From Candidatus Dadabacteria bacterium (GTDB taxonomy: Bacteria; Desulfobacterota_D; UBA1144; Nemesobacterales; Nemesobacteraceae), in NCBI GenBank assembly GCA_022827275.1, contig JAJDTG010000010.1, forward strand, positions 86,968 through 150,967: 64,000 nt of DNA, read 5' to 3'. Below, piece by piece: positions 37,341 to 41,388 of this stretch. The first letter of the stretch is position 1. Each line of letters begins with the position of its first letter. The notes below the pieces were generated by a model. It made no database searches and was not told the DNA's origin. It saw only the letters and a list, made by a program, of their open reading frames with translations. A program made the translations under genes and the position numbers.

Positions 37341-37348
37341 TATTTTTT
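37341..37348 (+). repeat. Left 8-bp target site duplication
   Basis: TATTTTTT immediately outside the left terminal repeat. The identical 8-mer lies immediately outside the right terminal repeat at 40307-40314. Eight base pairs is the duplication length typical of the IS1595 family. Confidence 0.85.
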
Positions 37349-37373
37349 GGGAATTATGTATTTGACTTGACAA
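37349..37373 (+). repeat. Left terminal inverted repeat
   Basis: 25 bp beginning GGGAATTATG and ending TTGACAA; it matches the reverse complement of 40282-40306 without mismatch. It includes a TTGACA (37367-37372) that, with TATAAC at 37388-37393, may serve as a weak promoter for the transposase, although the spacer is only 15 bp. Confidence 0.92.
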
Positions 37374-37429
37374 ACCTTTATTCCCCATATAACCTATTAT
37401 GCAAAACAAGGAGGCAAGACGGATAGGAA

Positions 37430-38368
37430 ATGGGACAGTTAGCCAAGTCAAAAAGAGAAAAAATCAGTTTCTATGATTTCATGGAACTTTTCGATACGGA
37501 AGAAAAGGCCAGAAAACACTTTGAGAAACTAAGATGGGAAAACGGAAGGATCTGCCCCAGGTGTGGGTCCACCGAAACCAAGGAAGCAAGCCACAAGCAA
37601 ATGCCTTTCTGGTGCCCTTCCTGCCGTAAATACTTCAGTGCGAAAACCGGAACACTTATGGAAGAAAGCAAGCTAAGCTATCGTAAATGGTTAATGGCTA
37701 TCTACCTTATGTCCACTTCCTTGAAAGGTGTGTCAAGTACCAAACTGGGTAACGACCTGGGAATACAACAAAGGTCGGCATGGTTTCTAGCCCACCGTAT
37801 CCGCCAAGGGTGGGCCAACAATGCTTCCCGTCTTTTCGGAAGGATTGTCGAAGTTGACGAAGCTTATCTGGGAGGACTTGAGAAAAACAAACACGAGAAA
37901 AAGAAACGCAAGAAAGGGCGTGGGGCAGTAGGGAAAACCCCAGTTGTAGCCATCAAGGAAAGGGAAGGTAAAAAGGTCAGGGCATTAAGAGTGGAAAGTA
38001 CGGACGCTCAAACCCTTCACTGGATAATTCTTAATCATGTGGAAAAAGGCAGTGTGGTATTCACTGATGACTTCAAAAGCTATTCAGGGTTAAAGGAAAA
38101 GGGGTATGAACACGCAACCGTTCATCATTCAATCGGGGAATACGTCAAAGGGGAAGCCCATACAAACGGAGTTGAGAGTTTCTGGGCGTTACTCAAGCGT
38201 GGATACTATGGCATTTATCACAGAATGTCAGTCAAGCACCTTCAGAAGTACATTGACGAGTTTTCCAACCGTAACAATGTCCGTCCTATGGATACTATGG
38301 ATCAGATAAACGCCACGATAAACGGACTTGTCGAGAAAAGGCTTACTTATCAGGATCTGATTAGGTAG
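37430..38368 (+). CDS. IS1595-family transposase
   Basis: A 312-residue DDE-type transposase. Residues 42-65 form a zinc ribbon (Cys42, Cys45, Cys62, Cys65). A helix-turn-helix-like region follows (TSLKGVSSTKLGNDLGIQQR). The catalytic core has Asp143 in EVDEAYLGG, Asp213/214 in VFTDDFKSYSG, and HTNGVESFWALLKRG with Glu249 and the family's neighbouring Asn. It is intact and in frame, so the element may be active. It lies 57 bp inside the left terminal repeat. Confidence 0.94.
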   Translation: MGQLAKSKREKISFYDFMELFDTEEKARKHFEKLRWENGRICPRCGSTETKEASHKQMPFWCPSCRKYFSAKTGTLMEESKLSYRKWLMAIYLMSTSLKGVSSTKLGNDLGIQQRSAWFLAHRIRQGWANNASRLFGRIVEVDEAYLGGLEKNKHEKKKRKKGRGAVGKTPVVAIKEREGKKVRALRVESTDAQTLHWIILNHVEKGSVVFTDDFKSYSGLKEKGYEHATVHHSIGEYVKGEAHTNGVESFWALLKRGYYGIYHRMSVKHLQKYIDEFSNRNNVRPMDTMDQINATINGLVEKRLTYQDLIR

Positions 38369-38395
38369 GAGACCGTTCTGCAAAAAAAAGCAAGC

Positions 38396-38644
38396 TCATT
38401 TCCCCTGGTTATATCTGTCAATAAACTTGATTGCTCCAATGCCTAATATCAGAGTTAATATAAGAGTTGCAACTGACTCCATATTGGGTAGATGGTGAAG
38501 GTAACCCATCCGTGACCGCCAGATTCTACCTATTACTTCACCGGCAATTTCACTACTTATCCCAAAGGATATATACAAAAGAGCTAGCAACAAAGCATAG
38601 GGAACGATTACGGCATGAAGTATTTTAATGATTGTTTTCTTCAC
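38396..38644 (-). CDS. Passenger: small two-helix membrane protein
   Basis: An 82-residue protein with two hydrophobic helices, about residues 8-28 and 58-76, joined by a short basic loop (RIWRSRMGYLHH). Starts with GTG. No family is recognised. It is on the strand opposite to the transposase and 17 bp downstream of the coiled-coil gene, so these likely share a transcript. It could partner the tail-anchored coiled-coil protein (inference). Confidence 0.6.
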   Translation of the reverse strand: MKKTIIKILHAVIVPYALLLALLYISFGISSEIAGEVIGRIWRSRMGYLHHLPNMESVATLILTLILGIGAIKFIDRYNQGK

Positions 38645-38661
38645 ATCCCGTACCCCGACAA

Positions 38662-39033
38662 TTAAGGGGAGATAGGCGGCTTAAAAATAAAAAGCTTGTA
38701 AACAGTAAGACCTATTGAAATTATTGTAACCATACCACCTAATACCCATTTCACTATACTCCATTTTATTTCGGAAATTCCGACTTTCATTTGGCCGATG
38801 GTCGTAGCAATTTCCACCTTCATATCCCCCCTTTCCTTGGCGATAGTTGTTTCCATTTTTCCTACAGCTTGGGCAATCCCTTCTTTCATATCGCCGATTG
38901 CTTTTTCGAGATAGGCTTTTGACACAGCATGCGCAACATCCACTTCTAATTTTGTTAGCCTGAGATTAGTGTGTTCTCTCTCAGATGGGGTTGGATGTTC
39001 GGGCTCAGGTTGATCCGCACCATTTGTAGGCAT
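38662..39033 (-). CDS. Passenger: coiled-coil protein with C-terminal membrane anchor
   Basis: A 123-residue protein. A proline- and acid-rich N-terminus (~20 residues) leads into a long heptad-like helix (about 20-90) with repeats such as DMKEGIAQAVGKMETTIAKE and DMKVEIATTIGQMKV. A single membrane helix (about 93-113) and a short tail end it. The layout resembles DUF1640/CCDC90-type tail-anchored coiled coils. ATG 39033 has AAGGAGG upstream, which rules out the longer start. It lies within the transposon and its role is unknown. Confidence 0.65.
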   Translation of the reverse strand: MPTNGADQPEPEHPTPSEREHTNLRLTKLEVDVAHAVSKAYLEKAIGDMKEGIAQAVGKMETTIAKERGDMKVEIATTIGQMKVGISEIKWSIVKWVLGGMVTIISIGLTVYKLFIFKPPISP

Positions 39034-39047
39034 TACATACTTCCTCC

Positions 39048-39320
39048 TTAGTAGATCACTTCCTTTGTGAGCCATTCCCACAAGGAAGGCGTAAAACGTC
39101 CAGCGTATGATCCCTCTAGCCTAAATGTTACACCGCTCTCAATATAGTCATCATCTCTAATTCCTAGCTCGCTGGCAAGGTCTCTTGTAATGGTATCGGT
39201 TGAAATCAGAAACACATTATTCAAAAGTTTATAATGGTTGCTTGGGTAAATCTGCTTAATTTTTTCTTCTATTTCCTGATTCTCATTACGCAAAACAACA
39301 ATGAAAACACCTCTCGACAT
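39048..39320 (-). CDS. Passenger: small alpha/beta protein, possible ferredoxin-like fold
   Basis: A 90-residue soluble protein starting at ATG 39320 after AGGGGTGA. The order of predicted elements is strand (VFIVVLR), helix (NQEIEEKIKQIYP), strand (KLLNNVFLIS), helix (TITRDLASELG) and strand (SGVTFRLEG), ending in a conserved-looking SLWEWL. This is the order of a ferredoxin-like fold, as in Cas2/SinR-type small proteins, but no catalytic residue is identified and the fold is inference. It starts the run 39320-38396 of three co-directional passengers. Confidence 0.6.
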   Translation of the reverse strand: MSRGVFIVVLRNENQEIEEKIKQIYPSNHYKLLNNVFLISTDTITRDLASELGIRDDDYIESGVTFRLEGSYAGRFTPSLWEWLTKEVIY

Positions 39321-39378
39321 AGCTCACCCCTAGTCTTAATAATACTTCTGTCACAATTAGAAAACAAGGAGGAAGTCC

Positions 39379-39468
39379 TTAATTAACAAGTTCTTTGTAT
39401 CTAAGGCTTTTCCCCTCCAACCCGTCAAAAGTAGTCCTTATTTGCTCTATTGTGTCAAGCGGGCGTGT
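39379..39468 (-). pseudogene. Remnant of a second IS1595-type transposase (C-terminal end)
   Basis: The last 30 codons of a 62-codon minus-strand frame read RPLDTIEQIRTTFDGLEGKS then LRYKELVN. They align with the final 28 residues of the intact transposase (RPMDTMDQINATINGLVEKR then LTYQDLIR), about half identical. Upstream of this the similarity ends. The orientation is opposite to the intact copy. This suggests a decayed, inverted relative of the transposase inside the same element. Confidence 0.6.
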
Positions 39469-39633
39469 TAGGAAAACAAGTAGCAATTTTTCTCGCAGTT
39501 TGTTATAGAGTGCCGCAGGATGTTGCTGAATAACAAGAAAAACAGTGAAGGGAACCAAAAGTTCCATCAGGACCTAGAAAAGCTTAAGCGTTAAATTGAA
39601 ATTATATATAGAATATATACAATTTAGATAGCA

Positions 39634-39774
39634 ATGGCAGAAGAGAAAGAAAACCAGATACCAGATATGTCACAACTGGAATTTGATGATGTAGTCCGTG
39701 TCCTAATGGGTGCTGCCCCAGAAGGGGAAGAAATTGTTATTTATGAAGAGGAAGAAGAGGGCGATCAGAGTTGA
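39634..39774 (+). CDS. Passenger: very acidic small protein (46 aa)
   Basis: A short plus-strand frame encoding MAEEKENQIPDMSQLEFDDV and then a Glu-rich tail (PEGEE ... YEEEEEGDQS). Net charge is strongly negative. There is no clear ribosome-binding site and the upstream DNA is very AT-rich. It is the only passenger on the transposase strand. It may be a real small regulator or a chance frame. Confidence 0.4.
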   Translation: MAEEKENQIPDMSQLEFDDVVRVLMGAAPEGEEIVIYEEEEEGDQS

Positions 39775-39789
39775 ACCCTCATAAACAAG

Positions 39790-40215
39790 TTAACCACAAG
39801 ATCTGATAATAACCACAACAAGTATCGCAAAGACAATCAAAACAAAGTGCGTCATGTTCTTGTCCCGCTTATCCTTTTCAAGTTCAACAGCTTGTTTCGA
39901 ACGCTCCCTCTCAAATTCAAGTAATTGTTCAGGAGAAAGTTTTTCTCTGAGAAACAGGTATTGTTTTGAATCTTCCTCTCTATCTATGTTGGCTTTCCTT
40001 TCAGGCTTCCCCTTTCTATAAGTACTAACATCCATTATTAAAAATACAATCAACATAATAATCCCCAGACCGAAAAGAACATTGTTCAACCATGGCAACT
40101 GTCTCAATGTTTCAAGCCAAGTTGACCATACCTGTAAGTTTTCGAGTGTTTCCGGTAAGCTGATTGCAAGAAACAAAACTGCGGGAAAGTACTTAATATA
40201 CTTTTTATATGCCAT
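39790..40215 (-). CDS. Passenger: membrane protein with three hydrophobic segments
   Basis: A 141-residue protein. Hydrophobic segments lie at about residues 8-20 and 44-62, followed by a long charged helical region (REEDSKQYLFLREKLSPEQL, FERERSKQAVELEKDKRDK) and a C-terminal anchor (FVLIVFAILVVVIIR). ATG 40215 has AGGG 6-7 nt upstream; a GTG one codon earlier is possible. No family is recognised. It is the first minus-strand gene inside the right terminal repeat. Confidence 0.6.
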   Translation of the reverse strand: MAYKKYIKYFPAVLFLAISLPETLENLQVWSTWLETLRQLPWLNNVLFGLGIIMLIVFLIMDVSTYRKGKPERKANIDREEDSKQYLFLREKLSPEQLLEFERERSKQAVELEKDKRDKNMTHFVLIVFAILVVVIIRSCG

Positions 40216-40281
40216 CACAGCCCTAAAAGCATGTCATAAATTGTCAAAAAAGCAAAGCATTCTATCAACCCCCAAACAAAC

Positions 40282-40306
40282 TTGTCAAGTCAAATACATA
40301 ATTCCC
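40282..40306 (-). repeat. Right terminal inverted repeat
   Basis: 25 bp, exact reverse complement of 37349-37373. Its outermost base also supplies the final G of the rodA stop codon TAG on the minus strand. Confidence 0.92.
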
Positions 40307-41388
40307 TATTTTTTTCTCAGGCAAAGAACTATACCGATTCCGATAAAAGCCGTAAGGGTTGAAGAACCGCCGTAACTGATGAAGAAAAGAGGCGTGCCGA
40401 TGATCGGCATAAGTCCTGTTACCATAGCGATGTTTATCACTGCGTGCCAGAAGAACATGGTTGCGATTCCAAAGCATGCTATCGTCGAGAAGCGATCTTC
40501 TAGGGATGTCGAGATATTGAGGATAAAAAGGATTATCGAGAAATACAGAAGAAGAATAAATACCGCCCCCCGAAATCCCCACTCCTCGGAAATCACCGAA
40601 AATGCGAAATCCGTATGGTACGCGGGAAGAAAATTCAAGTTGGACTGCGAACCTAGTGAAAAGCCTTTCCCGTAACCCATGCCGGAACCTATGGCAATCT
40701 GGGACTGAATCGAGTTATAGCTTATACCAAAAGGATCAGAGGAAGTGTCCAAGAAGGAATATATCCTCTCCTTCTGGTAGTCCTTGATCAGAAGATGCCA
40801 GACCGGCACAATGGATATCAGCGCTATGATTATTATTTTAAACAGTGCCTTCTTGCTGATTCCCATAAGCAGAATGATGCTTGAACCTATGAGAAGAATG
40901 GTGATCGCAGTTCCCATGTCGGGCTGAGCAATTACTGCTGCGGTAGGAACAAGGAGAAGAGCTATAGGCTTGAGAAGTTCCGCAGAATTGTAATTTTCCT
41001 TTGCGGCCACCTCGTTTCCGTAATAATTGGCAAGCGCCATTATTATCCCGATTTTAATAAATTCGGAGGGCTGAACGGAGACCGGACCTATCTGGAACCA
41101 GCTTCTGGATCCCGATACCGTTTTTCCGAATACGAAAATCAATGCCAGAAGCACGAGGAAAAACAGGTAGAAGGTAAACGAATGGCTTTCCAACGTCGTA
41201 GGCCTTAAGCGATTAATAACCACCACGGTTAGAATTCCCGCGAGGACCCATATGAGTTGTTTCTTGAATGCACCCAAGCCGGCCAACAAAGAAATGCTGT
41301 AGAGATTGGCGAGTCCCGCCAAGCAAAGCAGAACGGTCAGCATCAACAGCCAGGAGTGTCTACTCAGATTTAGCAACTCGAGCTTCAC
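40306..41388 (-). CDS. rodA: Rod-shape peptidoglycan glycosyltransferase RodA
   Basis: SEDS-family polymerase that works with PBP2 in elongation of the side wall. The 360-residue, ~10-helix protein has family segments SRSWFQIGPVSVQPSEFIKI, PDMGTAITILL, YNSIQSQIAIGSGMGYGKG and FSVISEEWGFRGA. GTG 41388 follows GGAG by 4 nt and overlaps mrdA by 29 bp; the longer start at 41421 lacks this. The 3' end touches the transposon: the stop is TAG with its last base from the terminal repeat, so the protein keeps its length. Confidence 0.95.
   Translation of the reverse strand: MKLELLNLSRHSWLLMLTVLLCLAGLANLYSISLLAGLGAFKKQLIWVLAGILTVVVINRLRPTTLESHSFTFYLFFLVLLALIFVFGKTVSGSRSWFQIGPVSVQPSEFIKIGIIMALANYYGNEVAAKENYNSAELLKPIALLLVPTAAVIAQPDMGTAITILLIGSSIILLMGISKKALFKIIIIALISIVPVWHLLIKDYQKERIYSFLDTSSDPFGISYNSIQSQIAIGSGMGYGKGFSLGSQSNLNFLPAYHTDFAFSVISEEWGFRGAVFILLLYFSIILFILNISTSLEDRFSTIACFGIATMFFWHAVINIAMVTGLMPIIGTPLFFISYGGSSTLTAFIGIGIVLCLRKK
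40307..40314 (+). repeat. Right 8-bp target site duplication
   Basis: TATTTTTT, identical to 37341-37348, at the last codons of rodA. One copy would have been present before insertion. Confidence 0.85.

Follow-up and report, generated by a model that had tools for sequence, protein, structure and literature searches.

An IS1595-family transposon with uncharacterised cargo in Candidatus Dadabacteria, and TnpB-only elements that share its type of ends

What separates rodA from the neighbouring sco (cta) gene in one genome of Candidatus Dadabacteria, and does it move? The window analysed here is a 64,000-nucleotide stretch of that genome (contig JAJDTG010000010.1, assembly GCA_022827275.1). We consider it very probable that the interval between the two genes, taken as a whole, is a 2958-bp, apparently autonomous IS1595-family transposon that was inserted once between rodA and sco. 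A reading made from the letters of the window, the sequence-only reading, had proposed a complete transposon of this family with perfect 25-bp ends and an 8-bp target duplication. This proposal was confirmed by the exact arms, by TATTTTTT on both sides, by the transposase domains and by empty sites in related genomes.

The terminal inverted repeats (TIRs) were located with a repeat search. They are 25 nt long, lie at 37349-37373 (plus strand) and 40282-40306 (minus strand), and are 100% complementary. The 8-bp, AT-rich target TATTTTTT, as read in the sequence and by empty-site comparison, is found directly outside them at 37341-37348 and 40307-40314 (no strand assigned). When the surroundings of the transposase were scanned for inverted repeats bounded by 8-bp duplications, the window ends ranked first, with 24/24 positions and no mismatch in the target-site duplication (TSD), and the runner-up pair reached 15/24. 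Both the TIRs and the 8-bp TSD are features by which membership of the IS1595 family is recognised.

The empty site was then compared, since the sequence-only reading expected relatives with cta and rodA adjacent around a single TATTTTTT. Such relatives exist: sco/cta directly adjoins rodA in 11 genomes of the window's genus, and when the window flanks are joined with one copy of TATTTTTT between them, the alignment to these genomes runs through the junction ungapped. The insertion spans the stop codon of rodA, which is TAG in the window versus TAA in the four relatives checked. The last base of this codon is supplied by the right end of the transposon, and because this base recreates the stop codon, RodA is unchanged. 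In a twelfth genome (G009), the same rodA-sco interval contains about 200 bp of unrelated inserted DNA (L017, about 2694-2923), which by eye resembles a C-terminal fragment or zinc-ribbon remnant of TnpB. No further copy of the 25-mer end was found in the 1.77-Mb assembly with up to three mismatches allowed, which weighs against the end being an unrelated genomic repeat. Because the element is single-copy, has perfect ends and is missing from 11 congeners, the insertion is lineage-specific, and the recent move suggested earlier is borne out in that form.

The transposase gene lies at 37430-38368 on the plus strand and encodes 312 amino acids with an intact DDE domain and a Zn ribbon, as judged by domain matches and alignment. 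The protein matches PF12762 (DDE_Tnp_IS1595) at 1.1e-42 and NF033547 at 2.8e-58, and both matches exceed the curated cut-offs. Its N-terminal Zn ribbon matches PF12760 at 9.6e-9 (35.5 bits, against a cut-off of 25.4). A Zn ribbon is expected at the N-terminus in all IS1595 groups except IS1016. The catalytic residues D143, D213 and E249, together with K256, and the zinc cysteines Cys42/45/62/65 are invariant across ten relatives, in agreement with the intact enzyme described by the sequence-only reading. From its GGGAATTAT ends and DDE+K residues, the element presumably belongs to an ISNwi1-like subgroup. In the proposed mechanism, both 25-bp ends would be bound by an IS1595 transposase, in all likelihood the element's own enzyme, and joined to target positions staggered by 8 bp. 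The same genome also has another, distinct IS1595 element (L039, G000:C8:94773-95702; 1973 bp, TSD GAATGTTT), with a transposase 69% identical to that of the window. A decayed transposase lies farther along that contig (G000:C8:147844-148363).

The window element shares with the IS1595 family the DDE_Tnp_IS1595 and Zn-ribbon domains, the 8-bp TSD, TIRs starting with GGG and a single transposase gene (Siguier, Gagnevin and Chandler 2009, as cited in PMC8101967). It differs from the family in cargo that could not be matched to known families, in a gene for a microprotein near its right end and in an internal transposase scar. Passenger-carrying members of the family are already known, and the family is also related to the eukaryotic Merlin transposons (PMC8101967).

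Is the window element a single case? It was found to be one member of a large passenger-carrying group. Its closest named relatives are in metagenome-assembled genomes (MAGs) of Candidatus Dadabacteria, and further relatives are in MAGs of Chloroflexota, Rhodothermales, Bacteroidetes, Gammaproteobacteria, Acidimicrobiales and others. Judging by bin names that we recognise, we take many of these MAGs to be derived from sponges. A script scan gave about 17 further complete elements of 1.8 to 6.4 kb, and in most of them the ends are of the GGGAATTAT type and the 8-bp duplications are perfect. Relatives with GGGAATTAT ends, both in Dadabacteria and in other phyla, carry different cargo. In sister Dadabacteria, one element (L034 5450-8734) carries a 1094-aa type IIG enzyme (1e-150) and another (L030 4865-6870) a type II endonuclease and a methylase (7e-135 and 1e-164). 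Fusions of a methylase with HNH or Mrr are found on IS1595 elements of other phyla. Complete or single-protein restriction-modification systems are carried by L034, L030, L051, L052, L055 and L062. The passenger-carrying relatives (L030, L034, L052, L055, L058, L062 and others) have the same end type and 8-bp TSD as the window element, transposases about 45-70% identical to that of the window and, in most of them, the right-end microprotein. Many of them differ from the window element in carrying restriction-modification genes. The earlier claim that the passengers are unlike usual IS cargo holds only with qualification: the cargo of the window element differs and is unassigned, and its sister elements carry complete restriction-modification systems.

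The microprotein gene of the window (39634-39774, plus strand, 46 amino acids) had been presumed to be a passenger, but it is a family-wide right-end gene. Relatives of it are found in other Dadabacteria elements, and in elements of other phyla a small gene encodes a comparable helix and often, behind it, a proline and a basic tail. Across phyla, this right-end-linked gene was seen in the window element and at the right ends of L030, L046, L051, L052, L054, L055, L058, L061, L062, L065, L067, L072, L157 and L170. The distance from its stop codon to the right end is 12-62 bp in at least 11 elements. When the model was built without the element's own group, the microprotein ranked first among all open reading frames (ORFs) of its own locus in 16 of 21 cases. 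Because the choice of L049 and L070 rested in part on the motif, these ranks are most trustworthy for members selected by their position. The independent support comes from held-out loci that were scored afterwards; several of these, on plasmids, viral contigs and other genomes, match the model with E-values of 1e-3 to 6e-7, although not every held-out locus matches. On a closed Rhodothermales chromosome, 19 of 22 matches are within 3 kb of an IS1595 transposase, compared to 0.9 expected. These copies are related to one another, so the evidence across phyla weighs more. At several loci, the gene adjoins a TIR and no transposase was found. No significant Pfam, NCBIfam or PADLOC model was obtained for the members tested, and we found no description of a conserved right-end microprotein gene in IS1595 elements. 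We infer that the microprotein is a putative accessory of transposition. In the Rhodothermales copies its gene comes shortly after that of the transposase, an arrangement that points to the gap between these genes as the place where cargo is acquired. An AT-hook-like RGRP motif was seen by eye in several members. At L149 (6073-6286), two IS1595-type TIRs enclose a microprotein gene only, in a possible element of 214 bp with no matching duplication.

A search of the window's genus with the end sequence led to a second kind of element. At L038 (4544-5807), TIRs that differ from those of the window at few positions bound 1264 bp with the TSD TATATTTA, and the sole gene encodes TnpB (PF07282, 1.1e-22; PF01385, 1.1e-18). 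Further elements were found with a TnpB search of the genus combined with TIR and TSD scans. The elements of the genus fall into two TnpB lineages that are about 28% identical; among the Dadabacteria elements are L038, L173, L174, L179, L181, L183, L185, L188, L191, L198, L208, L210, L215 and L222. Eight more elements were found outside Dadabacteria, in two Rhodothermaceae MAGs and one Bacteroidetes MAG (L238, L242, L246, L250, L251, L256, L259, L260). These TnpB-only elements are 1.23-1.41 kb long (about 1.25 kb) and have IS1595-type GGGA... TIRs and 8-bp TSDs. The duplication is perfect in 21 of 29 and has one mismatch in 4 of 29. For a TnpB element in G008, the empty site was recovered: the flanks abut in 11 genomes and overlap by the 8 bp that one target copy would give (7 bp in one genome). 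Shuffled TnpB controls gave 0/150 TIR and TSD matches, and together with the empty sites this rules out a chance origin of the ends.

The TnpB-only elements are too short to hold a transposase, and there is no TnpA inside the 1.25 kb. The Y1 transposase family gave one weak match per Dadabacteria genome and none in G148, G154 and G156. We infer that transposases recognising window-type ends may move non-autonomous elements with near-identical TIRs, the TnpB-only ones included. G008 has no match to an IS1595 transposase today, so mobilisation in trans would there be a past event, or due to a copy since lost or absent from the assembly.

If an RNA from the right end runs into the flank, its guide would start at or after the duplication, and a motif read by TnpB is expected in the empty site, immediately to the left of the duplication. 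With the elements oriented by their tnpB gene, the base at this position is G in 19 of 21 Dadabacteria elements. The eight elements from other phyla, examined afterwards, all have G as well (27/29 in total). The mirrored position on the right side is C in only 4 of 29 TnpB elements (Fisher p = 7e-10). Elements with a transposase are symmetric in this respect (left G 10/24, right C 11/24). In the TnpB elements the bias is one-sided, which rules out that their G stems from a transposase with a symmetric preference for its target.

The last 160 bp or so of the TnpB elements are conserved through frame shifts of the ORF. For one Dadabacteria lineage, RNAalifold gave a right-end RNA with 33 pairs, and compensatory changes are seen in 8 of these. 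In this fold 98.8% of cells pair, compared to 35-43% with the partners slid, and the covariation score exceeds that of all 500 shuffles. The covariation supports a predicted right-end RNA whose fold includes the inverted repeat. In one helix the bases just inside the end would pair with the TIR, and they co-vary in two elements with variant TIRs. This is suggestive of a TIR-pairing helix, coming from two elements of shared ancestry.

How do these elements compare to known TnpB systems? In the papers that we found, TnpB of prokaryotes belongs to IS200/IS605 and IS607 elements. TnpB-only elements resemble these in their OrfB_IS605 and Cas12f1-like_TNB domains and their structured right end, but they have TIRs and 8-bp TSDs and lack an internal TnpA gene. 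The possibility that they are IS200/IS605 elements, which have a Y1 TnpA and no TIR or TSD, was rejected for the same reasons: TIRs are present, 21 of 29 TSDs are perfect and TnpA is missing. Elements with TIRs, TSDs and TnpB-type nucleases have been described in eukaryotes and their viruses (PMC10711439, PMC3627910), and for Fanzor1 the RNA scaffold is predicted to take in both the TIR and the TSD (PMC10711439). Fanzor1 and Fanzor2* in DDE transposons (PMC3627910, PMC10711439) are like the TnpB-only elements in that the nuclease is the sole gene of a non-autonomous TIR/TSD element, and in that the right-end RNA fold includes the TIR. The TnpB-only elements are unlike them in being bacterial, in their IS1595-type ends and in the G, similar to a transposon-adjacent motif (TAM), directly outside the duplication. 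No bacterial TnpB with IS1595 or DDE ends was found in the papers that could be searched, and priority is uncertain.

We lean toward the view that these parts form a two-part bacterial system. Autonomous IS1595 elements would carry defence-like cargo, and TnpB-only elements would borrow their DDE transposase. The right-end RNA would run through the TIR into the duplication, and TnpB would cut the empty site by (T/G)G, so that the element is forced back. This would be a prokaryotic counterpart of the Fanzors on DDE transposons, with the microprotein as an undescribed accessory of the autonomous elements. The link to TnpB elements by shared ends and the right-end microprotein are the surprising parts. 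If TnpB does retain the elements in this way, the union of an RNA-guided nuclease with a DDE transposase also arose in bacteria, where it is testable. The microprotein, too, is a candidate accessory of transposition that can be put to the test. For the window element, the empty sites document cleanly that an IS1595 transposon has moved uncharacterised genes in an uncultured lineage; its relatives move whole restriction-modification systems in several phyla.

What, then, does the window element carry? Its own cargo is four small uncharacterised proteins, all encoded on the minus strand: p82 (38396-38644, 82 amino acids, hydrophobic), p139 (38662-39081, 139 amino acids, a coiled coil and a C-terminal hydrophobic segment; the later ATG near 39033 is the likelier start), p90 (39048-39320, 90 amino acids) and p142 (39790-40218, 142 amino acids, with hydrophobic segments). 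Only p90 has a convincing homologue, in the congener G012; it was found in one of 147 other genomes and not in the plasmids or viral contigs. An AlphaFold model of p90 from two input sequences has a ferredoxin-like order of strands and helices at low confidence (pLDDT 61), and with this low-confidence model a comparison to the PDB, which bears on the idea of a Cas2/SinR-like protein, gave no match at E 0.001. Our most likely guess for the role of the cargo, a defence or toxin-like module, comes from the restriction-modification systems of sister elements. In G012 the p90 homologue and a small coiled-coil/hydrophobic gene lie between mnmE-like and pheT-like genes (L161 6386-6995), in a possible two-gene module; no sequence homology was found between this small gene and p139.

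Another ORF, p62 (39379-39567, minus strand), was also presumed to be a passenger. About 27 residues at its C-terminus match the C-termini of IS1595 transposases (67% identical, 1e-8) and are the scar of a second, inverted IS1595 copy. We picture the element as a mosaic. The ancestral core would be TIR, transposase, right-end microprotein and TIR; p82, p139, p90 and p142 would have been picked up around the microprotein gene, and a second IS1595 copy, in inverted orientation, would have been lost except for the C-terminal scar of its transposase. A possible, though doubtful, alternative is that two opposite IS1595 copies captured the genes between them, after which the second was deleted but for the C-terminus of its transposase and the outer ends moved as a unit. 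The minus-strand scar, with p90, p139 and p82 downstream in the same orientation, fits this history. However, there are no internal TIRs, the second transposase amounts to some 27 residues only, and most relatives have cargo without a second copy. The first two of these points also led us to reject a composite transposon with two complete flanking copies.

Another explanation, which we regard as unlikely, is that most of the cargo ORFs are decaying non-coding DNA, with only the microprotein and perhaps p90 being real genes. The lack of clear homologues for p82, p139 and p142 would agree with this, and the scar shows that decay has happened. The four ORFs are nevertheless intact, closely spaced and of hydrophobic or coiled-coil character, and G012 has a conserved p90 that is followed, as in the window, by a small coiled-coil/hydrophobic gene. 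That the interval is an immobile gene block bounded by a chance or unrelated repeat is almost certainly wrong, given eleven empty sites with a single target copy, an end that is unique in the genome and the many relatives that share this end type and likewise have 8-bp TSDs.

We regard the window element as an IS1595 transposon of ordinary mechanism with unusual cargo, and the empty sites back its identity as a transposon. A few points weigh against this reading. Its own genome holds one full-length copy, whose activity can only be presumed. The libraries searched gave no clear homologues of p82, p139 or p142, and some of these may not be genes. Also, the microprotein gene is about 530 bp from the right end in the window, whereas it adjoins the end in most relatives. 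Finally, the inner end of the right TIR contains TTGACA, as part of an inward sigma-70-like promoter match (11/12; 40288-40259, minus strand) that faces p142.

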